Of a stretch of 64,000 nucleotides of DNA, positions 5,751-62,725 are shown in pieces. Numbering within the stretch: the first letter of the stretch is position 1; each line of letters begins with the position of its first letter. The stretch is from Thioalkalivibrio sulfidiphilus HL-EbGr7 (GTDB lineage: Bacteria > Pseudomonadota > Gammaproteobacteria > Ectothiorhodospirales > Ectothiorhodospiraceae). Where the stretch lies: NCBI RefSeq assembly GCF_000021985.1, contig NC_011901.1, positions 1,922,001 to 1,986,000 on the forward strand, read 5' to 3'. Both the position numbers and the translations under genes were made by a program. The notes beneath the pieces are model-generated. The model did no database searches and was not told the origin of the DNA. It worked only from the letters and a program-made list of their open reading frames with translations.

Positions 5751-5948
5751 ATGGGCAGCAGCCTTACGCCCGACCTCAAGCGGATACTGCGTGACGCCGG
5801 ATGTGTGTTTGTCCGGCAGGGGAAAGGGGATCACGAAATTTGGTACAGCCCTAAAACGAATCGTAATTTCCCGGTCGATTCTAAAATTCTATCTCGCAAC
5901 ACTGCCAACGCGGTATTGAAGCAAGCAGGTCTCCCCAAGCAGTTCTAA
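5751..5948 (+). CDS. hicA: HicA-type mRNA interferase toxin
   Basis: The 65-residue protein has the HicA/YcfA layout: an N-terminal helix (SLTPDLKRILRDAG), two strands with the catalytic histidine in GKGDHEIWY, and the C-terminal helix ANAVLKQAGL. HicA toxins have a double-stranded RNA-binding fold and cleave mRNA. The length is normal for the family and nothing is truncated. The order here is antitoxin first, toxin second, the reverse of classic hicAB but common when the antitoxin is of the DUF1902 type. Confidence 0.85.
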   Translation: MGSSLTPDLKRILRDAGCVFVRQGKGDHEIWYSPKTNRNFPVDSKILSRNTANAVLKQAGLPKQF

Positions 5949-6056
5949 GTGGTTCGTGCTCTTACCTTTCGCACAGGCAGAAGAAGCCCGGCGCTTGACC
6001 GGGTAACCGCGAGGATGACCCTTAAATAACGCTTTCGGAGAATTGTTTGTCTCCGA

Positions 6057-9429: not shown

Positions 9430-10674
9430 ATGACCAACTCACTTGGATTGCCCCGCCACGGGGACAAACAGAACTCCCCCTTCTTTGAGGAATACCTGGT
9501 GCGCCTGCTGGAGGAGCGCGACCGGGTGGGCCTGAGCGATCTCATCCGCGAGATCGACGCCCTGATGATCACCGTGGAGCCCGGTCACTCGATCCAGTAC
9601 GTGGCCGAGCTGGCCCTCATGACGCCCTACCACTACCTGGTCACCCTGGAAAGTGAGTCCCACTGGACACACATCCTGCGCATCGACATGGCGTCGCCGG
9701 ACATCCTGGTGAGGGAGGTGAAGGACCCGTCCATCCAGGGCATCTTCCGGAGCCTCAACGAGGTCTACCCCATCGGCCGGCACAAGCCCCACAGCCGCTA
9801 CATGGGCGAGATCCTCCGGGTGGAAGACCTGCACGGCGCGGTGAGCCTGCAACGGGACCGGGAGTTCCGCTTCTTCACCCAGGACGAGGTGCGGAAACTG
9901 GAACTGCCGGGCAACGTGGCGGTGAGTAAGCCCTCTCCCTATACCCACAACATGGTGGGGTACATGGAGCGACGGCCTGACGAGATCCGTGTGTATGCCC
10001 TGGGGATGAGCAGCATTCGCAGTGACGTCAACGAGGCCTACCTGGCCGCCAAGGCGTTGCAGGAAAAGCTGCGCATCGACGACCTGCTGCAGCCCATCGA
10101 TCACCTGGCCACCCGGGTCTACGCCCAGAACCGGGAAGTGGCGATCCTCGAATACCTCTCCTGGTCCAGCTACTACTACTGGGGCTCCTATGACATCAAG
10201 GACCAGAACTCATCCACCAATGTCACCAAGAGCGTTCACTATTCCGAGGAGCGGCGCAGCCCGGCCAAGGTCTTCACCGCCAACAACACCCCGTACTTCG
10301 TCAATCACCTGGAGAAACTGCCCTCACCCACCGAGACCTTCGTGCGCAATTACGGACCGCGCCTGCACCACATCGCCGTGGGGGTCAACGACGGTGAACG
10401 GGACGGTGTTGAGAACATCGAGTTCGTAGTCGAGGCCATCCGGCGCCAGGGGAAGGATTTCCTCCTGGATGTGATCGGCTCCAAGGAGGAAGGCCTGAAG
10501 CAGATCTTCTCCAGCGCCTCGGAGCACTCCTCGCTGATCGTGGAATACGTGCAGCGTTTCGGGGATTTCGACGGGTTCTTTGCCAGAGACAACGTGGCGG
10601 AGTTGACACGGGCCGCAGGCGCAGAGGAGACGCTGCGTTTACTCGATGCAGAGGCCGGTGCGAAGGGGTCGTGA
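9430..10674 (+). CDS. VOC-fold protein resembling 4-hydroxyphenylpyruvate dioxygenase
   Basis: The start is put at the ATG at 9430, since the preceding 20 codons look unstructured; no strong ribosome binding site is seen. The C-terminal half keeps spacing like a two-module VOC dioxygenase: IDHLATRV (first metal histidine), YGPRLHHIAVGV (second), and LIVEYVQRFG (glutamate). Such a 2-His-1-Glu site binds Fe(II) in the HPPD family. The N-terminal half (EEYLVRLLEERDRVGLSDL) is unlike HPPD. A strikingly aromatic segment, SSYYYWGSYDIK, lies between the sites. Substrate is unknown and the gene stands alone. Confidence 0.6.
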   Translation: MTNSLGLPRHGDKQNSPFFEEYLVRLLEERDRVGLSDLIREIDALMITVEPGHSIQYVAELALMTPYHYLVTLESESHWTHILRIDMASPDILVREVKDPSIQGIFRSLNEVYPIGRHKPHSRYMGEILRVEDLHGAVSLQRDREFRFFTQDEVRKLELPGNVAVSKPSPYTHNMVGYMERRPDEIRVYALGMSSIRSDVNEAYLAAKALQEKLRIDDLLQPIDHLATRVYAQNREVAILEYLSWSSYYYWGSYDIKDQNSSTNVTKSVHYSEERRSPAKVFTANNTPYFVNHLEKLPSPTETFVRNYGPRLHHIAVGVNDGERDGVENIEFVVEAIRRQGKDFLLDVIGSKEEGLKQIFSSASEHSSLIVEYVQRFGDFDGFFARDNVAELTRAAGAEETLRLLDAEAGAKGS

Positions 10675-10699
10675 GCGGATGGTCGTATGGGGGAAAAGA

Positions 10700-11503
10700 C
10701 TAATACCCCCAAACACCTTCGAGCATGGTCTCCAGGCCCAGGTAGGTATCGTTGGCGGCCTCCTCGAGGTTGGGCACGTTCAGAGCCTCCAGCATGGCTC
10801 GACCGGTCGGTGAGTTTTGGGCATTCAGCAGCGCCTGACGGATGCGCTCGCGCTGGTCTGGGCTGACTCTGCTGCTCACCGAGATCCCGGGCGCCGGTAG
10901 CTGCTCGGTGGTGTACACCGGGACAAGATCTGGGAAATTCGCCATCAGGCTCGTAGGCAGCATGGCCCCGACTGTGCGCTTGTCCACGGCCGACTGCGCG
11001 GCTTCGACATGGGTATCCACCGGGACGATGTGTGGCTGACGTACCGAGTCCGGGAATAGATTGATGAGACCCAGGGCACCGAGGGCCGGGGAAGGCTGCG
11101 ACGCGACCCGCCGCCCGATCAGTTCTGACGGATCCAGGATGCCGAAGTCCACGTGGGACGCCAGGGTGAAGCTCAGGACATCTGGCAGTTTGGCCACCAC
11201 GGTGTAATCCATCCTGGCGGCACGGTAGGCGGTGAACGGCGGTGCGTCGATCACGATGTCGTAAGCCTCGCGACGCATCAACTGCCAGTGGGCCAGGATG
11301 TTGACGCTCGTCTCCAGCCGGATATCCCTGCCCGTGGCCTGAGCCAGGTAAGCGATCAAGGGCTGATAGGTCTGGGCCGCCTGTTGCTGAGACAGGCCCA
11401 ATGCCACCGCCAGGGTCAACTCATCAGATTTGACGGCGCTCCCGGCCAGCAGGAAGAACAACAACATGCTGCGCAAAGAGGTCGCTATGAGCCTGCTGGG
11501 CAT
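10700..11503 (-). CDS. PhnD/SsuA-type periplasmic substrate-binding protein
   Basis: The start is the ATG at 11503, since the upstream frame has no signal sequence. A signal peptide (LRSMLLFFLLAGSAVKS) is followed by the phosphate/phosphonate-binding fold. Indicators are LTLAVALGLSQQQAAQTYQP and LIAYLAQATGRDIRLE, then the FTAYRAARMDYTVVAK region and a helical end. No ABC permease or ATPase adjoins, so it may feed a sensor or be an orphan. Ligand cannot be assigned. Confidence 0.75.
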   Translation of the reverse strand: MPSRLIATSLRSMLLFFLLAGSAVKSDELTLAVALGLSQQQAAQTYQPLIAYLAQATGRDIRLETSVNILAHWQLMRREAYDIVIDAPPFTAYRAARMDYTVVAKLPDVLSFTLASHVDFGILDPSELIGRRVASQPSPALGALGLINLFPDSVRQPHIVPVDTHVEAAQSAVDKRTVGAMLPTSLMANFPDLVPVYTTEQLPAPGISVSSRVSPDQRERIRQALLNAQNSPTGRAMLEALNVPNLEEAANDTYLGLETMLEGVWGY

Positions 11504-11643
11504 GATCAAGGATACCTCTCGTCTGTGACCGACTCGATTGTATCTCAACCCGGCAATGTGATAAGCGACCCATGAGAATCGTTTGTCGCCGAATCCATAC
11601 CAGTGGTCGTCGGGAAAAATGACGGAGGGATAGAAAGGGAAAA

Positions 11644-11680
11644 GGTGACGGAGGGTTAAAAGCCTTGACCCTCCGTCACC
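11644..11680 (-). terminator. 13-bp palindrome, possible terminator and REP-like element
   Basis: GGTGACGGAGGGT pairs with its complement around an 11-base loop, 31 bases beyond the stop of the metallo-beta-lactamase-fold gene. On the minus strand it is followed by TTTCCCTTTCT. A partial copy, TGACGGAGGG, lies just to the left near 11620. It resembles the palindrome at 12892. Confidence 0.6.
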
Positions 11681-11711
11681 TCTGACTTGAGCCGCGTCTG
11701 CGGTGAACTGC

Positions 11712-12713
11712 TCAGAACAGCGCCGCTTCCACCTGCAGGTAAATGTGAGAGACGGACTCACCGAGGATGTCGTCCATGCCGGGATAGATGGCCTCGAAGT
11801 CCGCCATCTGCTCGCGGGCCTGTGCGGCGATCTCATGGTCCATCATGCCGGCGTTATAGCCCTCTTCCACGATATCCCACAGGGTCTGGAAGTAGTTGCG
11901 CATGTTCTGCACCGCCTCGAAGCCACCGACCGGGCCGTGACCGGGCAGTACCACTTCAGGCTCCAGGGCAAGCATCTCATCGAGCATGGCGATCCAGCCC
12001 TGCACGTTGGAATCGAAGGTGGCCGGGCCGCGTTCGGTGTAGACCACGTCGGCGGCCAGCAGCACACGCTGAGCGGGCAGCCACAGGGCGATATCGCCGG
12101 GGGCATGGGCACGCTCGCTGCGCAGGATATAGGCCTCGGTGTCGGCGAACTGGTAGCTGCCGGATTCGGTCACCGCATCACGCGCCGGCACCAGGTCGAA
12201 GCTGCCGATGGCCCCGTTGGTCATGCTGTAGAAACGGCTCAGCCATTCGTCACCCTGCTCCTTCATCAGTGCGATGGTGATGTCGGAGGCGATGATCTGC
12301 TCGGGTTCGTCGGCCATGAAGGCGCTGTTGCCCAGCCAGTGATCGCCATGCACGTGGCTGTTGATGATCCAGCGCACCGGCTGATCGGTGACGGTGCGGA
12401 TTAGATCACGCAGGGCCGCGCCGATGGCTTCGGAAGAGCCGGTATCGAACATCAACACCCCGTCGCCGGTGACGACAAAGGCGGTGTTGGAATTCCAGCC
12501 CAGGTTGTCCGCGCTGGGAAAGCCGCGGGCGGGAGAAACGATGGCATAGACCCCCTCGGCCAGCTGCTCGACCTTCATGCCGAAGGGGTTGTCGGTCACC
12601 TCTGCCGTCTCCGCGGCGGCCTGCTGCTGAACGGGCGGCTGGCTCTCGCCGGAACAGGCGCTCAGCCACAGGGCGATGCTGACCAAAAGCAGAGTAAAAA
12701 TAAGGTTTTTCAT
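11712..12713 (-). CDS. Metallo-beta-lactamase-fold lipoprotein (SoxH/quinoprotein-relay type)
   Basis: The start is the ATG at 12713 after CTGGAGAAGTC. The lipobox LSAC near residue 20 marks a lipoprotein. The zinc site motif HVHGDHWLGN is intact, followed by APGDIALWLPAQRVLLAADVVY and PGHGPVGG, all standard for class B-like hydrolases of the SoxH and quinoprotein-relay metallohydrolase group. Substrate is unknown. The gene is bracketed by two related palindromes (11644-11680 and 12892-12928). Confidence 0.8.
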   Translation of the reverse strand: MKNLIFTLLLVSIALWLSACSGESQPPVQQQAAAETAEVTDNPFGMKVEQLAEGVYAIVSPARGFPSADNLGWNSNTAFVVTGDGVLMFDTGSSEAIGAALRDLIRTVTDQPVRWIINSHVHGDHWLGNSAFMADEPEQIIASDITIALMKEQGDEWLSRFYSMTNGAIGSFDLVPARDAVTESGSYQFADTEAYILRSERAHAPGDIALWLPAQRVLLAADVVYTERGPATFDSNVQGWIAMLDEMLALEPEVVLPGHGPVGGFEAVQNMRNYFQTLWDIVEEGYNAGMMDHEIAAQAREQMADFEAIYPGMDDILGESVSHIYLQVEAALF

Positions 12714-13125
12714 GACTTCTCCAGTGCAGTTTCTTAACTTGGGTGGATCGTTCAATGAATCTTGGGAAGTTGATGTGGATTCCTTTCCCTTTGTCCAGGA
12801 TCTTTCGTGCGCGTTCGGCGCAACCCTGGATCTCCGGGTGCGTGAACAGGGGCGACGATAAGAGGGCCCTGGGTCTTTCCGGCTACTAAAAGGGGGCGGA
12901 GGGATTACAGTTTCATCCCTCCGCCCCCTCTAACTGTCTTGCCCGGTGCTTCCCTGCCGTATTGGGGCGTAGATTGTACTGAAATTACGCGCCCAAGATC
13001 GATTCCCGGCCGAATACTAAGGAATTATTCTTTATATACAGTCGGTTGCCAAGATTCGGCCCCGTTATTGGGATTGAACGCCCGTGAGGGACTGGTGTTG
13101 GTTGGAGTGGCCGACACCCTGTGAC
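12714..13125. other. Intergenic region containing one strong palindrome
   Basis: No gene is supported. The main feature is the palindrome at 12892-12928. A short AT-rich patch (GGAATTATTCTTTATATACA, about 13020-13039) could carry promoter elements for the gene to the left on the minus strand, but I could not fix them. Confidence 0.4.
12892..12928. repeat. 14-bp palindrome, REP-like
   Basis: GGGGGCGGAGGGAT pairs perfectly with its complement around nine bases. It shares the GCGGAGGG/CCCTCCG core and spacing with the palindrome at 11644-11680. It is preceded by CTTTCCGGCTACTAA (12875-12889), which recurs with one change at 15355-15369. Confidence 0.75.
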
Positions 13126-13383
13126 CTACCCACCGCTCAAGGCCTGCACGATCACCACTTCGTCAGACTCTTTCAATGGCAGGCCAAGATCGAATACTGC
13201 GGCGTTATTGACGAAACAGCGCATGTTCGGGCGCATCCTGTTCTGCTCGTCGACGATGCGGAACCGGATGCCGGGGAACTGGCGATCCAGGTCATCCAGC
13301 AGGCCGGACAGCGTCTCGCCGTGGGCCTGCACCCGGGGACTCCCGGTGTAACTGTGCAGCGGCGTGGGGATCAGAACGTCCAT
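13126..13383 (-). CDS. MoaD/ThiS-family small sulfur-carrier protein
   Basis: The start is the ATG at 13383; the frame continues upstream into the neighbouring gene. The 85-residue protein has the ubiquitin-like order of strands (VQAHGETLSGLLDDLDRQFP, then RCFVNNAAVFDLG) and ends in LSGG. The terminal Gly-Gly is the residue pair activated to a thiocarboxylate in this family. It begins 7 bases after the stop of the BNR-repeat gene, which suggests one transcript. Nearby genes for molybdopterin or thiamine synthesis are absent, so its job is open. Confidence 0.85.
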   Translation of the reverse strand: MDVLIPTPLHSYTGSPRVQAHGETLSGLLDDLDRQFPGIRFRIVDEQNRMRPNMRCFVNNAAVFDLGLPLKESDEVVIVQALSGG

Positions 13384-13390
13384 GGCCTGG

Positions 13391-14527
13391 CTAACCGAGC
13401 TCTGCGCTCTCGACCGCATAGATCTCTGGCAGGTGGCGTGCGAGACAGCGCCAGTGCTGCCCCTCGTCGTCACTCATCCAGAGTTCACCGCTCGTGGTTC
13501 CGAAGTAAAGACCCACGGGATCCCGGGTGTCGCAGGTCATGGCTTGACGCTTCACGGTCCACCAGGCCTGTTCCCTCGGCATACCCTCATCCTGTCGTTC
13601 CCAATTCATGCCGCCGTCTCGCGTGCCATAGACCGCGGGTCTGCCGCTCGGCGAGGTGCGAGGCCAGACCTCGGTACCGTCCATGGGGAAGACCCAGGCG
13701 CGGTCCGCATCCCGTGGGTGTACGACCATGGGAAAGCCGATGTCGCCCACCTCGCGGGGCATTGCATTGCCGATGCGTCGCCATTCCATGGAGGGCCGAT
13801 CCAGGCGGTATATGCCGCAATGGTTCTGCTGATAGAGGCGGTCTGGGTCGCTCGGACACAGGCGTATGCAATGGGGGTCGTGGAAGGTCGGATCGAGAAT
13901 GTCGAAGCCCTCCACGACCTCCAAGCCCTCGATCAGGGATGTGAAGCTGTCACCGCGATCCAGAGACTCATGCACCCCGCCACCAGACATCGCGATGTAC
14001 AGGTGCTTCGGGTCACGCGGGTCCACGATGATGGAGTGCAGAACGGGACCATCCGGGGTTCCGTCCTGCACCGTACCCATCCAGGCACGGAACCGGGGAT
14101 CGTCGTTGAGGATTGAATAGGGCTGCCAGTGATCACCACCGTCATCGGAGCGGAACAGGCCCTGGGGCGAGGAGCCTGCATACCAGGCTCCGGGCTCGTC
14201 AACATGGCAGGGCGTGAGCCAGAAACTGTGATGTACGCTGCGCCCGGTCTCGGGCTGAAAGGCAGGTGGCCGACGGGCCTCTCTCCACGACGCTCCCAGG
14301 TCCGTGGAGCGAAAGATCGTCGGTCCCAGGTGCCCGGTACTGGCTGTTGCCAGCAGCGTCTCTCGGTCGCGGGGGTCCAGGACCATGTGATGAATGATAT
14401 GACCGAGAAAGTGGGGGCCGTCGCTTCGCCAGTTCTGGCGTCTGTCGTCGCCGTGAAACAGCCATGCCCCTTTGCGGGTGGCTACCAGCAACACGGGACC
14501 CTGTCCGGATGACTGAGATGTCGTCAT
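13391..14527 (-). CDS. BNR/YVTN beta-propeller protein (sialidase-like fold)
   Basis: The start is the ATG at 14527 after AAGGAGGAACGACAC. No signal peptide is seen, so it is cytoplasmic. The protein shows several BNR-like repeats: FRSTDLGASWREA, FRSDDGGDHWQP, GTRDGGMNWERQ and WMSDDEGQHWR. It also has GVHESLDRGDSFTS. These form a beta-propeller. True sialidase catalytic residues were not identified. It is paired with a downstream MoaD-like carrier gene, an arrangement I know from other bacteria but without an established function. Confidence 0.8.
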   Translation of the reverse strand: MTTSQSSGQGPVLLVATRKGAWLFHGDDRRQNWRSDGPHFLGHIIHHMVLDPRDRETLLATASTGHLGPTIFRSTDLGASWREARRPPAFQPETGRSVHHSFWLTPCHVDEPGAWYAGSSPQGLFRSDDGGDHWQPYSILNDDPRFRAWMGTVQDGTPDGPVLHSIIVDPRDPKHLYIAMSGGGVHESLDRGDSFTSLIEGLEVVEGFDILDPTFHDPHCIRLCPSDPDRLYQQNHCGIYRLDRPSMEWRRIGNAMPREVGDIGFPMVVHPRDADRAWVFPMDGTEVWPRTSPSGRPAVYGTRDGGMNWERQDEGMPREQAWWTVKRQAMTCDTRDPVGLYFGTTSGELWMSDDEGQHWRCLARHLPEIYAVESAELG

Positions 14528-14548
14528 GTGTCGTTCCTCCTTCGCGAG

Positions 14549-14611
14549 AAACCGGGTCAGCGAGGAAATTCTGCTTATCTCTAGAGACATTTCCCCGCTG
14601 TGACCCGGTTT
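14549..14611. repeat. Long imperfect inverted repeat upstream of the BNR gene
   Basis: AAACCGGGTCAGCGAGGAAAT at 14549-14569 is nearly matched in inverted form at 14589-14611 with small mismatches. It lies about 20 bases upstream of the BNR start codon, in the expected leader, so it could act as an operator or leader hairpin. Confidence 0.6.
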
Positions 14612-14687
14612 CTTCAGTATCAGATTATCGGGGATGACACGTCCTGGTGCGCCAGGCTGATCATGTGTATGAGAGCATCCCGCAAAG

Positions 14688-15251
14688 TCAGGCCTTCACA
14701 GACTGGAAAAACTGGTGAAGCAAATTAGGATCGTAACAGTGGGAGTCCTGCTCCATGCGCCGCAGGGCTCTTTCCGTAGAGACGCCCTTATGATAGGGGC
14801 GATTCATGATCATGGCATCGAAAGAATCCAGGATTCTGGCCAAGCGCGCAAAGAATGGGATTTCATCGCCTTTGAGGCCTTGGGGATATCCAGTTCCGTC
14901 ATAGTTCTCATGATGGAATCGCACGAGATCGTTTACACGAGGATCAAGGTCCAGGGGAGACAGTAGATCCGCGCCTATGTCGGCGTGCTGCTTGATGAGC
15001 GAAAACTCAGATGCGGTCAGGCGTGCGGGCTTGTTCAGGATATGATCGCTGATGGAAAGCTTTCCAAGGTCGTGGATCTCAGCACCCAGGCACAGCAGGG
15101 AGACTTCCTCCGATGTACAGCCCAAATGCAGGCCAAAGCGTTCAGCACTACTGCCAAGCCTCTGATGATGTCCGGCGAGATCGGGGTCCCTTCCTTCGAC
15201 GAGTCCCGCTATAAAATTTGCAATTCTATCGATCATATCCAGTGCCCCCAT
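14688..15251 (-). CDS. Stand-alone HD-GYP domain protein
   Basis: The 187 residues are almost all HD-GYP domain. The metal-binding HD pair lies in GAEIHDLGKLSI, and the GYP signature in FHHENYDGTGYPQGLKG. HD-GYP domains hydrolyse cyclic di-GMP. No receiver or sensor domain is attached, so it may act alone or with a partner in trans. The start ATG at 15251 is convincing. The gene precedes the integron region and is separated from it by about 210 bases. Confidence 0.9.
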   Translation of the reverse strand: MGALDMIDRIANFIAGLVEGRDPDLAGHHQRLGSSAERFGLHLGCTSEEVSLLCLGAEIHDLGKLSISDHILNKPARLTASEFSLIKQHADIGADLLSPLDLDPRVNDLVRFHHENYDGTGYPQGLKGDEIPFFARLARILDSFDAMIMNRPYHKGVSTERALRRMEQDSHCYDPNLLHQFFQSVKA

Positions 15252-15464
15252 GAAACATGGTCACCTTAGTAAGGATATATAGATTGCCTGCCACAAGGGT
15301 GCAATGCCGTTAAAGGTGATTTAAAAGGTGACAGACTCTGAGGTTTCCCCCCGTCTTTTCGGCTACTAAGCAGCGAGTGAATCCAGAGGCAGTGTCCCTC
15401 ATTACTCAGACGCCCACAGGCATGGCAGATTAAGCGAGAAGCACAATAGGTATACCGTCCCTGG

Positions 15465-15493
15465 ATTTAACGCAGTGCAGAACCTTGTTGGGC
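15465..15493 (-). repeat. Truncated attC-like site after the hydrolase cassette
   Basis: On the minus strand, directly after the hydrolase stop, GCCCAAC fits the attC consensus RYYYAAC. It is followed by AAGGTTCTGCAC, similar to the other attC. Then comes GTTAAAT, which fits GTTRRRY. Only 29 bases separate the outer ends, far short of a normal attC, so the central hairpin seems lost. Confidence 0.45.
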
Positions 15494-15502
15494 GACGATT
15501 GT

Positions 15503-16399
15503 TCAGGCCAAAGGCAGACGGTTGTTGGCGGTTATCCAATCGAGTATGAGGTGATCGAATTCTTCCGGCTGTTCGAGCTGTGGAGTGTGTCCGCTCTTGC
15601 TGAACACTCGGAAGGCGACGTTCTCCAGACTAGGCAGTACCCTATTCCATAGTGTATGCGGAACCGCGTAGTCGTGTTCTCCCATGACGATGAGCACGGG
15701 AGCGATGAGTGATTCAGCATCCCAATTCAACTCGTATTCCTGGTAGAGGTCGCGAAACGCGCGAATGGCCTCCATATCGAACGCCATGCCATCCCACAGC
15801 CAGGAGGCGTCGTAATTGGGATCATTCCAATACAAGGGCGCATCCGCTACGTATTGCCGAACGTAGGCATCCGCTGGAGAAAGCGACTCCAACTGATCCT
15901 TATCCACCAGGGAGCTCCGCCTCATCTCAAGGGCTTCCCGCCGCTCCTCTGAAGCATGGAGTGCCCAGTACTGTTCGGCAGCATGAACTGTTTGGGCGAT
16001 ATTAACGGGAGGAGAACAGATCAGGACAACATGTGAAACGTTCTGAGGAAATCTCTTCGCGTACTCCAGAGCTACGTTTCCGTGATGAGAATGGCCGACC
16101 ACTGCAACACGCTCAAGACCGGCTGCAAGACGAATCGCCTCAATGCACATCGCATAGGTGTCGAAGTTGATTGATGTATGTATGAACTTAGAGTCCAACC
16201 GTACGAAATGTGGTAAATCAGCACACACCAGCGAGCACGATCGCCTAAGACCTTGCGAGAAGGTTCGGGGGTAATAAATGGATGACCCTACGATCAGCAG
16301 AGGCGTACCAACGCCTTCCACAGTGTATGCAAGCTCGGTACCAGCTACGCTCACGAAATGGCTGCCAATTTCTCTTTCGGCCATTTTCCTTTCACTCAT
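15503..16399 (-). CDS. Alpha/beta hydrolase, probable integron cassette gene
   Basis: The ATG at 16399 lies five bases after the attC right-hand box, a typical cassette position. The fold is supported by the nucleophile elbow VGHSHHGN, the acid in GEHDYAVP and the catalytic histidine in SGHTPQLEQP. The elbow has histidine where most members have the last glycine of GxSxG, so activity may differ. Composition is clearly lower in GC than flanking genes. It is the second cassette of the array. Substrate is unknown. Confidence 0.8.
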   Translation of the reverse strand: MSERKMAEREIGSHFVSVAGTELAYTVEGVGTPLLIVGSSIYYPRTFSQGLRRSCSLVCADLPHFVRLDSKFIHTSINFDTYAMCIEAIRLAAGLERVAVVGHSHHGNVALEYAKRFPQNVSHVVLICSPPVNIAQTVHAAEQYWALHASEERREALEMRRSSLVDKDQLESLSPADAYVRQYVADAPLYWNDPNYDASWLWDGMAFDMEAIRAFRDLYQEYELNWDAESLIAPVLIVMGEHDYAVPHTLWNRVLPSLENVAFRVFSKSGHTPQLEQPEEFDHLILDWITANNRLPLA

Positions 16400-16404
16400 T
16401 CGCC

Positions 16405-16476
16405 GCTTAACGTTGAACTCACCGATGGCAATGGAGCGCGAGCGGAACTGGCATCCGGTGCAGTGACTTGTTATGC
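16405..16476 (-). repeat. Integron attC recombination site (72 bp)
   Basis: On the minus strand it starts with GCATAAC (overlapping the upstream stop codon) and ends with GTTAAGC, which fits GTTRRRY. Inside, CACTGCACCG and CGGTGAG face each other as inner boxes around an imperfect palindromic centre. The order of parts and size are as expected for attC. Confidence 0.8.
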
Positions 16477-16944
16477 AGCGCCGCCCTCACCTTCGACTGC
16501 GATATCAAAATGCAAGACATCTTCACGCCTCCCCAGCTTTGTATACAAGGCGACTGCTGGTACGTCTTCAATGCCGGTGTCGGCTTGAACGAAGATCACG
16601 TAGGCGCCTCGCATAGCAGCTATTTCCTTTAGCTTCTCAATCAACATTGTCGCAATCCCTTCTCGCCGATGCCCGATGGCCACCGCAAGATCGTAAATGT
16701 AGACCTCGCTGCGCTCCTGCTCGAACTTCTTCAGTTCATACGCGGCGATGCCGCCGATGACAACTCGATTCTTCAAGGCTGCCAGCGCAATGAAGGAATC
16801 ACCGCCGAGCAGTCGTTCCAGATAATCGTCACTCGGGGGGTTCGAAGTGTAGGTTTCCTGTTCATTGAATGCCTCGCCAAACGTTGTCAACAACGCTTTC
16901 ATCAGCGGCACATCATTCGGGGTGAGATGGCGAATGTCTATCAA
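16471..16944 (-). CDS. AAC(3)-I family aminoglycoside N-acetyltransferase, first cassette
   Basis: The protein has the GNAT fold and matches AAC(3)-I enzymes block by block: DSFIALAAL, ELKKFEQERSEVYIYDLAV, the acetyl-CoA loop HRREGIA, and ALYTKLGRREDVLHFDI. These enzymes acetylate gentamicin-type aminoglycosides at N3. I choose the TTG at 16944 because ACGGAGG lies eight bases upstream and the protein then lines up with the family N-terminus. An ATG far upstream at 17061 would run through the attI region. The stop codon lies inside the attC. Whether it gives resistance cannot be read from sequence. Confidence 0.85.
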   Translation of the reverse strand: MIDIRHLTPNDVPLMKALLTTFGEAFNEQETYTSNPPSDDYLERLLGGDSFIALAALKNRVVIGGIAAYELKKFEQERSEVYIYDLAVAIGHRREGIATMLIEKLKEIAAMRGAYVIFVQADTGIEDVPAVALYTKLGRREDVLHFDIAVEGEGGAA

Positions 16945-16962
16945 CTGGGCTACCTCCGTGCT

Positions 16963-17100
16963 GCATAACAGTTGATTAGACGGATTCTGACATATCGGTG
17001 ATATGCGGATTCCGTATAGTACGGGGAACCCTTGCCTTTCCGGTGTGTGTTGCGGAAGCATGAATCCTGTTCAGGAGCTTCGTGCACACAGGGAGGTGCC
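16963..17100 (-). other. attI-like region between integrase relic and first cassette
   Basis: On the minus strand GTTATGC at 16963-16969 marks the junction with the first cassette, and its sequence matches the outer box of attC. The region to the right, up to the integrase start at 17103, is where attI and the cassette promoter would lie. A weak -10-like TACTAT is present, but I could not define a promoter. Confidence 0.55.
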
Positions 17101-17102
17101 TT

Positions 17103-17315
17103 ATGGCGACAGGTGGTCGCGCCGACAGGGAACGCCGGTTTTGGGATCGTTACCGGCATATTCTTCTTTCTCGAGGGGTTAGATCCGCATCGGTAGGCTG
17201 TTATGTGATGCGGGCGGAGCAGTTCATCCGCACCTTTCCGAAGAGGCGGCGGGCGGCGTATCTCGGTACGCTGCGCCACAGTCTGACCGTGCGCAGCCCG
17301 CTGGATGCAGGCTGA
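17103..17315 (+). pseudogene. Internally deleted integron-type tyrosine integrase
   Basis: The ATG at 17103 follows GGGAGGTG. Residues 1-50 look like the N-terminal DNA-binding part of long IntI-like integrases (RFWDRYRHILLSRGV, then RAEQFIRTFPKRR). The frame then jumps to LTVRSPLDAG and stops, which resembles the family's very last residues (VRSPLD). All of the catalytic core, with its Arg-His-Arg-Tyr residues, is missing. It faces away from the cassettes, as intI does. It cannot be active. Confidence 0.7.
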
Positions 17316-17480
17316 ATGGAATGCATTGGGCAGCTTCATGGATGACCAGACTCCCTGTCTGTCTTCTTTGCCCCGACTTTAACGGTGGCGGGCGAGGGAG
17401 GCAAACGACGGCCGCTGCCCTGTCTTTGAGGTTTCGTATTTCCCCTCTGAGGCCTCTGTGCCCTCTGTGGCTAACCCGCC

Positions 17481-17742
17481 TTAACCCGCATATCTCACCG
17501 GGATTGCGGGAGCAGGCGAAGGATTCGTGTCTGTAGGCGCCGCTCTGGAGCGAAACCCATAGCAATAGCTATGGGTTGAGTGAAGAGCAAGCCTACGGGC
17601 GCGAAGACGAGCCTGAACCGCGATAGGACTCCGGCGGGAACAGACTGTCATGCTGAGTTCGCCGGCCATTTCAGTGTATTCCACTTGGGTTTCAGCTTGT
17701 TACGCGTCCGCTGGTGTCCGACCGGTGAGATATGCGGGTTAA
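17481..17742. mobile_element. 262-bp MITE-like element with 21-bp terminal inverted repeats
   Basis: TTAACCCGCATATCTCACCGG is repeated in inverted form at 17722-17742. The inside has no gene, but holds a hairpin AACCCATAG/CTATGGGTT (17554-17577). The right end overlaps the tatD stop codon. A partial copy of the end sequence is at 2888-2902. I did not recognise the IS family and saw no clear target duplication. Confidence 0.75.
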
Positions 17743-18518
17743 TCCTTCAAAGCACCAAACAGCTGCTGATAGTTGCGCGTCGTGAGCGCCGCGATGCTTT
17801 CAAGGTCGCTGCCGCGCACCTCGGCCACCTTCGCGGCCACGTCACGCACCCAGGCGGGGTGGTTGCCCTTGCCGCGATGGGGCACCGGGGCGAGGTAGGG
17901 GGAATCGGTCTCCACCAGCAGGCGGTCGTCGGGGACCTGGCGGGCCACCTCGCGCAGTTCATCGGCGTTGCGGAAGGTGACGATGCCGGAAAACGAGATG
18001 TAGAAGCCCAGATCCAGGGCGGCTTGCGCCATCTCCCAGGTCTCGGTGAAGCAATGCATCACACCGCGCACCTGATCGGCGCCCTCCTCCTTGAGGATCC
18101 TGATGGTGTCCTCCCGGGCGTCACGGGTGTGGATGATGAGCGGCTTGCCCACCTCCCGCGCGGCGCGGATGTGAGTGCGAAAGCGCTCCCGCTGCCACTC
18201 GTTGTCCTCGGGGTGGTAGTGATAGTCGAGCCCCGTCTCGCCGATGGCCACCACCCGGGGATCGCGACCCCGGCTCACCAGGTCCTCCACCGTGGGATCG
18301 GCCCCCTCGGTCTCGCCGGGGTGCACGCCCACGGAGCAGGACACATCCGCATAGCGCTCGGCGATGCCCCGCACCGTGGGGTATTCCTCCAGGGAGATGC
18401 TCACGCACAGCATGTGCCCCACGCCGGCAGCGCGGGCGCTGTCCATGACCTTGTCCAGGGAACCGTCGAAGGGCTCCAGATCGATGCGATCCAGATGGCA
18501 GTGGGAGTCGATGAGCAT
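17739..18518 (-). CDS. tatD: TatD-family metal-dependent deoxyribonuclease
   Basis: The start is the ATG at 18518 (MLIDSHCHLD), which gives the family's N-terminal metal motif; an ATG seven codons upstream is less likely. Further motifs are SVGVHPGE, GETGLDYHY, LIIHTRDA, GVMHCFTET and LLVETDSPYLAP, all of the TatD/YcfH amidohydrolase fold. These enzymes are 3'-5' exonucleases acting in DNA repair. It is the last gene of the fab-holB-pilZ run, as in other gammaproteobacteria. Its stop codon is formed inside a mobile-element end. Confidence 0.95.
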   Translation of the reverse strand: MLIDSHCHLDRIDLEPFDGSLDKVMDSARAAGVGHMLCVSISLEEYPTVRGIAERYADVSCSVGVHPGETEGADPTVEDLVSRGRDPRVVAIGETGLDYHYHPEDNEWQRERFRTHIRAAREVGKPLIIHTRDAREDTIRILKEEGADQVRGVMHCFTETWEMAQAALDLGFYISFSGIVTFRNADELREVARQVPDDRLLVETDSPYLAPVPHRGKGNHPAWVRDVAAKVAEVRGSDLESIAALTTRNYQQLFGALKD

Positions 18519-18533
18519 ATGGGGCAATTCAAC

Positions 18534-18593
18534 ATTCAACGTTCAAAATTCAAAGGTGCAGCGACTTTGAATCTTGAATTTTGAACGTTGAAT
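18534..18593. repeat. Intergenic palindrome (TTCAAAATTCAA family)
   Basis: Two perfect 20-base arms, ATTCAACGTTCAAAATTCAA and its complement, lie at 18534-18553 and 18574-18593 between pilZ and tatD. Related copies occur at 51540 and 62648. Confidence 0.85.
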
Positions 18594-18599
18594 TTCGGT

Positions 18600-18941
18600 T
18601 TACATGGTATGGGTCGGGCGATCCGCCTGCAGGGCGCCGGCCAGCAGGCCTTCGATCTTGTTGCGGGTGGCGCCGTTGTCCTGGGGATTGAACTGCACGC
18701 CGATGCCCGGGGTGCGGTTGCCCTGGGCGCGGGGCGGGGTGACCCAGATGATCTTGCCCGCCACCGGCATGCGCTCGCGCTCCTCCATGAGGGTCAGCAG
18801 CATGAACACCTCGTCGCCCAGCTTGTAGGGCTTCTGGGTGGGGATGAACAGACCGCCGTTCTTCACGAACGGCATGTAGGCAGCGTACAAGGAGTTCTTG
18901 TCCTTGATGGCCAGCGAGAGAATGCCCTGTCCTGCCGACAT
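18600..18941 (-). CDS. pilZ: Type IV pilus protein PilZ
   Basis: At 113 residues it has the size and sequence style of PilZ itself (IKDKNSLYAAYMPFVKNGGL, then FIPTQKPYKLGDEVFMLLTL, then GKIIWVTPP). PilZ works in type IV pilus assembly with PilB and FimX. Like other true PilZ proteins it lacks the c-di-GMP-binding arginine motif. It begins 12 bases after holB, the usual position in this operon. Confidence 0.95.
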   Translation of the reverse strand: MSAGQGILSLAIKDKNSLYAAYMPFVKNGGLFIPTQKPYKLGDEVFMLLTLMEERERMPVAGKIIWVTPPRAQGNRTPGIGVQFNPQDNGATRNKIEGLLAGALQADRPTHTM

Positions 18942-18953
18942 GCGGTGACTCCC

Positions 18954-21593
<2,640 letters not shown>

Positions 21594-21597
<4 letters not shown>

Positions 21598-22406
21598 GCC
21601 ACGCCCTCCGAAAGCGCCCGGCGCAGGCGCGCCACCAGCTCATGGCGCGGGAGCTCGCGACCGTCGAGCCGGCGCACGGGCCAGAGGCCGATCAGGGTGT
21701 TGGTGAGGAACAGGCCGCGGGCCTTGAACAGGTCCGCGACCGAGAGCCGCGCCTCCTGGCAGGAGACGCCCAGCGCCCGGGCCGCATCCAGCACCCGGGC
21801 ACGGGTGATCCCCGCCACGCCGCACTGATCCAGCAGCGGCGTGATCAGGGTCTGGTCGTCCCGGATCAGGAACAGGTTGCTCATGGTGCCTTCCACCACA
21901 TGGTCGTCGGTATCCAGCATGATGCCTTCCTGGAATTCATCCTGCCATTCACTGCGTCCCAACACCTGCTCCAGGCGGTTGAGATGCTTGATGCCCGCCA
22001 GGGCCGGGTTGCGGCCGAGCCGAGTTTGGCACACGCAGACCTCCACGCCCTCTTCTGACCAGGCCGCGGGCGGATCGGAGGTCTCGAAGCCCATCACGAT
22101 GCGAGTTGGCTCGGGCTTCAAAGGCGGGCGATAGCCCCGGAGGCCGACGCCCCGGGTCAGGATCAGCTTCAGCGCCCCGAATCCGCCGCCGGCCAGCACC
22201 CGGTGCGCCTCGGCCAGCCACAGACCGGCATCCGGCGCGGGCAGGCCCAGGCGCGCGCAGCCCCCGGCCATGCGCGCCATGTGCCGATCCCAGTGCAGGG
22301 GCTTGCCGTCGCGCACCGCCAGGGTCTCGAACAGGCCGTCGCCGTAGGCCAGCCCCCGGTCCTGGACCGGCAGGGTGTCTCCCGCTTGTCCGTTGACCAG
22401 AATCAT
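21594..22406 (-). CDS. pabC: Aminodeoxychorismate lyase
   Basis: PabC is a PLP fold-type IV enzyme that makes p-aminobenzoate and pyruvate from aminodeoxychorismate for folate. The start is the ATG at 22406 (MILVNGQ), which overlaps the pabB stop (ATGA). Motifs are DRGLAYGDGLFET, the PLP lysine in LAGIKHLNRLEQVLG, and EGTMSNLFLI. Length is usual. A longer frame upstream is only pabB shadow. Confidence 0.95.
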
Positions 22407-62647: not shown

Positions 62648-62715
62648 GATTCAAGATTCAAAATTCAAAGGGCAGATGCCTATCCCTTTGAATTTTGAAT
62701 TTTGAATCTTGAATT
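62648..62715. repeat. Intergenic palindrome (TTCAAAATTCAA family)
   Basis: ATTCAAGATTCAAAATTCAA with following AGGG faces CCCTTTGAATTTTGAATTTT and onward; the right arm has one extra seven-base unit. It sits between convergent mnmC and the gene at 62726. Confidence 0.8.
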
Positions 62716-62725
62716 CGCCCTCGCC

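Follow-up and report, generated by a model that had tools for sequence, protein, structure and literature searches.

The chromosome of Thioalkalivibrio sulfidiphilus HL-EbGr7 carries, beside tatD, a short integrase-like frame, an attI-like junction, and two genes separated by an attC-like site. Are these the remains of an integron, and what is left of its activity? The host genome is a single contig of 3,464,554 bases, and the window analysed here is its 64-kb stretch G000:C1:1922001-1986000; positions up to 64,000 refer to the window, and higher ones to the chromosome. On the minus strand, the array runs in the order GTTATGC, AAC(3)-I gene, attC1, hydrolase gene, and a short outermost attC (Table 1). 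The original prediction, a reading of the letters alone, had proposed a dead integron in the order stub, attI, and two cassettes. Its boxes are all present (GTTATGC at 16963-16969, attC sites at 16405-16476 and 15465-15493), and the order is collinear with that of an open-frame integron at the same locus of a relative, genome G004.

Table 1. Features of the tatD locus (window coordinates)
Feature	Position	Strand	Basis
91-bp repeat bordering the array on its outer side, overlapping the attC2 R' box	15378..15468	.	Copies elsewhere
Probable attC2 remnant: R'' GCCCAAC and spacer AAGG, centre deleted, GCGTTAAAT end	15465..15493	-	Second R1 match in the window
Cassette 2 gene for an alpha/beta hydrolase of 298 aa	15503..16399	-	PF00561, E 2.6e-16
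attC1, 72 bp, R'' GCATAAC, R' GTTAAGC	16405..16476	-	Best R1 match in the window; homology to attC of G002
Gene cassette 1 (AAC(3)-I cassette), attI crossover to attC1 crossover	16411..16968	-	Complementary end boxes; L089/L090 homology edge
AAC(3)-I family aminoglycoside N-acetyltransferase gene	16471..16944	-	NCBIfam NF033083; PDB 5HMN
attI / intI leader	16963..17081	-	Platform homology ending at crossover box
Relic intI, 77-codon frame (ATG 17103, stop 17315)	17082..17315	+	Homology to IntI of G004 and G002
MITE-like insertion, 262 bp including both TTAA copies, 21-bp inverted ends	17481..17742	.	Separates relic intI from tatD; not in G004
tatD, chromosomal anchor gene	17739..18539	-	PF01026, E 1.4e-84; same neighbour in G004

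Synteny at tatD makes unoccupied, filled, and decayed sites comparable across genomes. G004 is 95.9% identical to the window in DNA across 8.4 kb outward from tatD (98% in the TatD protein), and at the same position it has an open long-form intI and a cassette array. The gap between tatD and the intI end measures 164 bases in G004 and 423 bases in the window, where the MITE-like element contributes 262 of them. This element has 14 near full-length genomic copies at 89% or above, the one beside tatD included. In genome G002, the site is free of an integron and a RES/Xre gene pair (Pfam) directly follows tatD; in G001, homology to the pair starts ca. 190 bp past tatD, with no integron between. 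The G004 integron sits between tatD and the RES/Xre pair, which then comes after the array, and in G003 other genes, including a COX1 oxidase gene, separate tatD from the pair. An integron platform occupies tatD in two of the five genus genomes compared. The RES/Xre pair was not found beside the array of the window, where the outward genes differ. Because the genes outward of the G004 array are missing there, the outer edge of the array, itself a presumptive boundary, is by its gene content rearranged in the window.

The relic intI is what remains of a long-form integron integrase gene: it retains the N-terminal ca. 55 codons and, at the other end, the last ca. 10 (VRSPLDAG), and has lost ca. 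1.1 kb. Specifically, 24 bases at 17257-17280 replace 1110 bases of the G004 gene. These 24 bases may include a scrap of the TLRHS box, since 11-14 bp of them align collinearly with the TLRHS codons, a match that has an E of 1.5 on its own. With such a value, we dropped the requirement of at least two deletions that had been derived from this match, and a single deletion is possible. Searched against 58 genomes (our own and 57 relatives), the relic frame has matches in 11, our own included; the best are in G004 (71%, residues 1-59) and G002 (76%, residues 4-58), at the N-terminus of long-form integrases whose frames bear the TIGR02249 integron-integrase domain. Its other end, VRSPLDAG with the DNA that follows, matches the 3' ends of two further copies of intI in HL-EbGr7 (36 bp at 89% and 119 bp at 84%). 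The original prediction had made itself dependent on integron-integrase similarity of a rightward relic at 17103-17315, and both ends of the frame bear it out. The frame alone matches no family in Pfam or NCBIfam. Hence, where a complete integron has a functional intI encoding a tyrosine recombinase with the IntI-specific domain, this locus has a fragment frame of 77 codons. What it does possess is the layout of a relic integron, namely a recognisable intI remnant that lies beside attI and is oriented opposite to the array.

The G004 integrase at the orthologous locus (L072 8557-9876) is an open frame of 439 aa that scores 402.1 bits with TIGR02249 (cut-off 265) and also matches PF00589 and PF13495. 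The long-form integrase frame of G002 has 503 aa, and 30 residues present in it ahead of the catalytic domain are missing from G004 IntI. With these residues missing, G004 IntI is open yet perhaps inactive, and decay of the tatD integron may be under way in G004 as well as in T. sulfidiphilus HL-EbGr7.

We then inspected the boundaries of the cassettes. The attI crossover box reads GTTATGC on the minus strand, that is, GCATAAC on the plus strand. DNA homology of the platform to G004 (95%, 145 bp) and G015 (84%, 57 bp) ends at 16966, and that to G002 at 16967, so all three breakpoints fall no more than 3 bases from where the crossover is predicted. G022 matches less well (73%), and its homology extends to 16964. 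Both an attI and a crossover at the first cassette are hence recognisable. The end boxes of the AAC cassette, GTTATGC and GCATAAC, are complementary at seven of seven positions. GCATAAC occurs once per strand in the 64-kb window, exactly at the two ends of this cassette, and its uniqueness raises the boxes above chance. The stop codon TAA of the AAC gene lies inside the R'' box of attC1 and the hydrolase ATG (16397-16399) lies five bases past attC1, both as predicted. In addition, attC1 shares 82% identity over 55 bp with an attC from the integron locus of G002 (L070:13311-13382, 46.8 bits). Hence, the first cassette is bounded by attC1 on the grounds of model, homology, and end complementarity, and the second has an outer attC remnant.

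This outermost attC reads GCCCAACAAGG...GCGTTAAAT at 15465-15493. At 29 bp, it is internally deleted and has no hairpin, and its R' box overlaps the 91-bp repeat. Since the R' end is shared with the repeat, we grade the site as a probable attC remnant and treat the outer end of the array as uncertain; the predicted truncated last attC is thus upheld as a model match (see below) but not as a firm array end. The repeat has inverted ends and further copies at G000:C1:348432 and 348655 and on contig C20 of G004; the two chromosomal copies are near a toxin-antitoxin-like cassette. The cassettes had also been said to be less GC-rich than their surroundings. Their GC content of 0.530 is indeed below that of the right flank (0.676) but not of the left flank at 14600-15464 (0.521), and with the left flank equally low, GC content is no marker of the cassettes.

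An attC covariance model, R1, was derived from 13 sites in the arrays of relatives, with the loops trimmed; the window contributed no site. Twenty trimmed sites were reduced to 19 for alignment by omitting the own-genome site, and another six, whose inner arm has an offset of at least one base, were excluded. As attC1 belongs to the offset class, R1 may under-score it. A MAFFT alignment of full-length attC sites had misaligned loops and was not used. Up to E 10, R1 has two matches in the 64-kb window, and these are the two predicted attC positions: attC1 ranks first (22.9 bits, E 0.0029), and attC2 ranks second (13.7 bits, E 0.51). The prediction had been staked on an attC-model match too, and both sites supplied one. 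In an unfiltered run on 2.2 kb, attC1 scored 17.1 bits (E 0.0026) and attC2 13.7 bits (E 0.017). Beyond the window, R1 gave 38 matches with E ≤1 on 12 integrase-surrounding loci, a single match up to E 3 on 101 kb from 14 loci (in L233 of G004), and 15 matches with E ≤10 on 870 kb of AAC neighbourhoods, the last being near chance save the best few. The plain pattern GTTRRRY...RYYYAAC was tried genome-wide and rejected as uninformative, having 17 matches per strand against 41 in a reversed-pattern control. With a limit of E 5, an Rfam scan of 10000-22000 returned 13 matches, none of which reaches its gathering score or belongs to an attC-type family. Most of these sub-threshold matches fall at the tatD start (18526-18594), on an AT-rich inverted repeat composed of TTCAAC/GTTGAA words. 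MicroRNA models match this repeat below their gathering scores, and it has look-alikes in G004 and at 62649-62721 of the window.

Folding of attC1 as single-stranded DNA gave a mixed answer. The bottom strand folds more stably than the top strand (-10.8 against -6.3 kcal/mol). Against dinucleotide shuffles, however, its z-score is -0.64 and 51 of 200 shuffles are equally stable, and with 16 sites of relatives ranging from -14.3 to -25.0 kcal/mol, attC1 is the least stable of the 17.

The first cassette gene scores 226.6 bits with NF033083, above the curated cut-off of 200, which places it in the AAC(3)-I family as the prediction had it. Its protein matches PDB 5HMN (E 3.9e-64) and is 65.8% identical to a plasmid-borne AAC(3)-Id record. 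The start codon, assigned by eye, is a TTG at 16944 with GGAGG upstream, and a promoter scan of 16400-17320 found one weak match only, located within the gene. We surveyed the neighbourhoods of 80 out of 423 AAC relatives, using loci fetched from contigs. The two closest by DNA among those fetched are L089 from Billgrantia kenyensis (88.3% over 489 bp) and L090 from a Desulfobacteraceae metagenome-assembled genome (76.0% over 508 bp), which are assigned here, by record title, to Halomonadaceae and Desulfobacterota, respectively. In both, homology ends at 16969; among the 25 matches listed, the other 23 end at 16794-16945, within or at the start of the AAC gene. L090 has an attC directly upstream of its AAC gene that ends in GTTATGC (found by script). 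It is the best R1 match in a 1-kb unfiltered scan (14.4 bits, E 0.0052) but scores no better than chance in the run on 870 kb (E 4.5). A second attC-like stretch, seen by eye after the L090 gene, is absent from the R1 matches of the 1-kb scan. L089 shows by eye an attC-like site before its AAC gene, with R'' damaged to AGC, and this site (5906-5976), which likewise ends at the cassette edge, is the best R1 match of the 1-kb unfiltered scan (12.4 bits, E 0.016). Judged by where homology ends, organisms of different phyla share an AAC(3)-I cassette whose 5' edge is the same.

The hydrolase of the second cassette has matches in 116 of 369 class genomes (E ≤0.001, our own included), mostly weak and at fold level. 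Besides our own, genome G055 has the sole strong full-length match (46%, E 2.7e-80), the next best having an E of 1.0e-16; R1 found no attC in the G055 hydrolase region.

A wider search of the genome, which the original prediction had proposed, revealed further attC sites beside a complete-looking integron, at two further relic loci, and as lone attC-like sites (349380, 440902, and 2069199 among the matches listed). The genome-wide R1 run scored 150 of 5838 candidates, so this list is a lower bound; the window's own site is absent from its matches. The complete-looking integron has attC sites alongside a full-length, short-form IntI at G000:C1:2845117-2846055, whose TIGR02249 score of 476.7 bits exceeds the cut-off. 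Hence, the words "dead integron" suit the tatD locus but not the genome as a whole. One relic is an IntI C-terminal scrap at 3085759 (L017 9005-9915; G000:C1:3085004-3085914), with an attC-like site 0.7 kb off that is oriented as in an integron; the 3' end and flank of this scrap share 84% identity over 119 bp with those of the relic intI in the window. The other relic has an attI-like stretch at 2753749-2753797 (80% over 49 bp).

Further observations concern these scattered sites. At the latter relic (L177 7750-7829; G000:C1:2753749-2753828), the inner part of the attI-like stretch is doubled into a 71-bp near-perfect palindrome. Its cassette has a 292-aa ORF with no Pfam match, and the ends, GTTAGCG/CGCTAAC, read by eye as complements; an attC-like site lies at 2752793. 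Elsewhere, a single cassette with toxin-antitoxin-like genes ends in attC (L179 4224-4938; G000:C1:348723-349437). Its first gene has a Gp49 family match, the second is toxin-antitoxin-like by eye, and the ends GTTGGAA/TTCCAAC are likewise complementary by eye. Contig C20 of G004 carries a repeat and an attC like those of this cassette.

Because the corresponding locus of G004 carries an open-frame version, the succession of stub, attI, and cassettes represents a real degraded integron. We conclude that the tatD locus is almost certainly a degraded chromosomal integron that shares its platform with G004, carries two cassettes, and has had its intI gutted, so that its array would be frozen. The homology, the deletion, the limits of the cassettes, and the synteny are directly observed. 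The order of events may have been as follows. In a lineage common with G004, a platform of attI and long-form intI would have lodged 3' of tatD. The AAC(3)-I cassette would have been captured at attI, with the alpha/beta-hydrolase cassette behind it. The intI gene would then have lost its ca. 1.1 kb through one or more deletions, the catalytic domain going with it, and attC2 its hairpin, and the MITE-like element would have inserted beside tatD. Devoid of its own integrase, the array would be frozen, with no cassette exchange in cis. The cassettes could still be readable as ordinary genes, the AAC gene having its own putative ribosome-binding site, and the AAC product is predicted to acetylate aminoglycosides.

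Three other readings deserve weighing. The array might not be frozen at all if the IntI at 2845117-2846055 acted in trans, excising the AAC cassette or filling the orphan attI. That integrase is full-length and has adjacent attC sites, the ends of the AAC cassette are perfect complements, and the bottom-strand fold of attC1 is the favoured one. However, the enzyme is of the short form, BLAST of the tatD-locus attI found nothing alike around it (L015 and L016), attC1 is the weakest folder of 17, and attC2 is without a hairpin, so we consider such activity at the tatD locus unlikely. A related and tentative idea, which we would put somewhat higher while still doubting it, is that platforms of this genus moved and died repeatedly: tatD, 3085759, and 2753750 carry related attI/intI pieces, and the fourth integron, different and complete-looking, may serve orphan cassettes in trans. 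If so, the AAC(3)-I cassette edge found in two gammaproteobacterial families and in Desulfobacterota would reflect an environmental pool feeding resistance cassettes.

The remaining two readings deny that an integron ever stood here. Stray cassettes, that is, a cluster of attC sites lacking an integron integrase (CALIN), could have landed beside an unrelated tyrosine-recombinase fragment, in a genome where single attC-like sites do occur at the three lone positions given above. Collinearity of stub, attI, and array with the G004 open-frame integron contradicts this account and makes it highly improbable. Or the AAC and hydrolase genes could be ordinary chromosomal genes with attC boxes arising by chance. 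Relatives of the AAC(3)-I gene are often without a detected attC: with E ≤10, R1 placed an attC adjoining the AAC gene in 3 of 80 loci (L090, L115, and L119), to which the unfiltered scan added L089, and full-length integron integrases occur within the fetched DNA of 2 of the 80 (L113 and L122), with a fragment in L159. Moreover, 7 of the 57 related genomes have an AAC relative that is 55-68% identical along almost its full length, and G002 has a fragment. Such a coincidence of boxes is contradicted by the unique, fully complementary cassette ends, the E of 0.0029 for attC1, its homology to the attC of G002, and the cassette edge shared across phyla, and we give it next to no credence.

How does this degraded integron compare with known systems? 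T. sulfidiphilus HL-EbGr7 came from a sulfide-removing bioreactor and is classed as non-pathogenic, and the main text of its genome paper mentions neither "integron" nor "integrase" (PMC3072093). In the open-access literature, to which our search was confined (subscription papers lay outside its scope), no paper was found that combines Thioalkalivibrio, integron, and attC, or integron, tatD, and attC; one paper pairing Thioalkalivibrio with integron concerns laccase and is unrelated. In the survey of Nemergut et al. (2008, PMC2426708), nearly one third of intI genes are pseudogenes with a stop, frameshift, or major deletion, more than one fifth of integron-bearing lineages have more than one intI, and one intI clade has a gene fusion ca. 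120 residues longer. The tatD locus resembles the pseudo-integrons described there in its ruined intI and in the several intI genes of its genome. It differs from them in that its intI is cut down to two ends and in that a relative still has an open intI frame at this locus. CALINs, for which IntegronFinder 2.0 by default counts at least two attC sites without integrase while allowing that a single site can be real (PMC9024848), have been proposed as degraded integrons, and hypersaline ones are described for other hosts (PMC7923331). Like them, the tatD locus has attC without a working integrase, as far as the fragment frame tells. Unlike them, it keeps a recognisable attI and both intI ends, and R1 gives it one full attC and a 29-bp remnant, below the default of two.

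Another close parallel is in Xanthomonas, where integrons mostly sit at one address downstream of ilvD and frequent intI inactivation is followed by stabler arrays (PMC12444791). The fixed address, the loss of intI by large deletion, and the extra attC clusters in the genome are common to both. In contrast to the Xanthomonas integron as described there, the address here is tatD, the host is a soda-lake chemolithotroph, and two of five genus genomes are occupied. Integrase pseudogenes and orphan arrays are already well documented, and neither the decay series nor the spread of the AAC cassette overturns existing knowledge. What the tatD locus adds is a case that can be compared unusually well across genomes: the same address has no integron in G002 and G001, an open-frame one in G004, and a gutted one in HL-EbGr7, so that a path of integron decay can be read. 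The AAC enzyme belongs to the same family as the known AAC(3)-I enzymes (PDB 5HMN; NF033083), here borne as an integron cassette. It departs from them in its environmental lineage, its 65.8% identity to the plasmid-borne enzyme, and an activity that is predicted from its sequence. For a family also found on clinical plasmids, the same mobile unit thus occurs in a soda-lake sulfur oxidiser, in Billgrantia, and in a Desulfobacteraceae metagenome-assembled genome.
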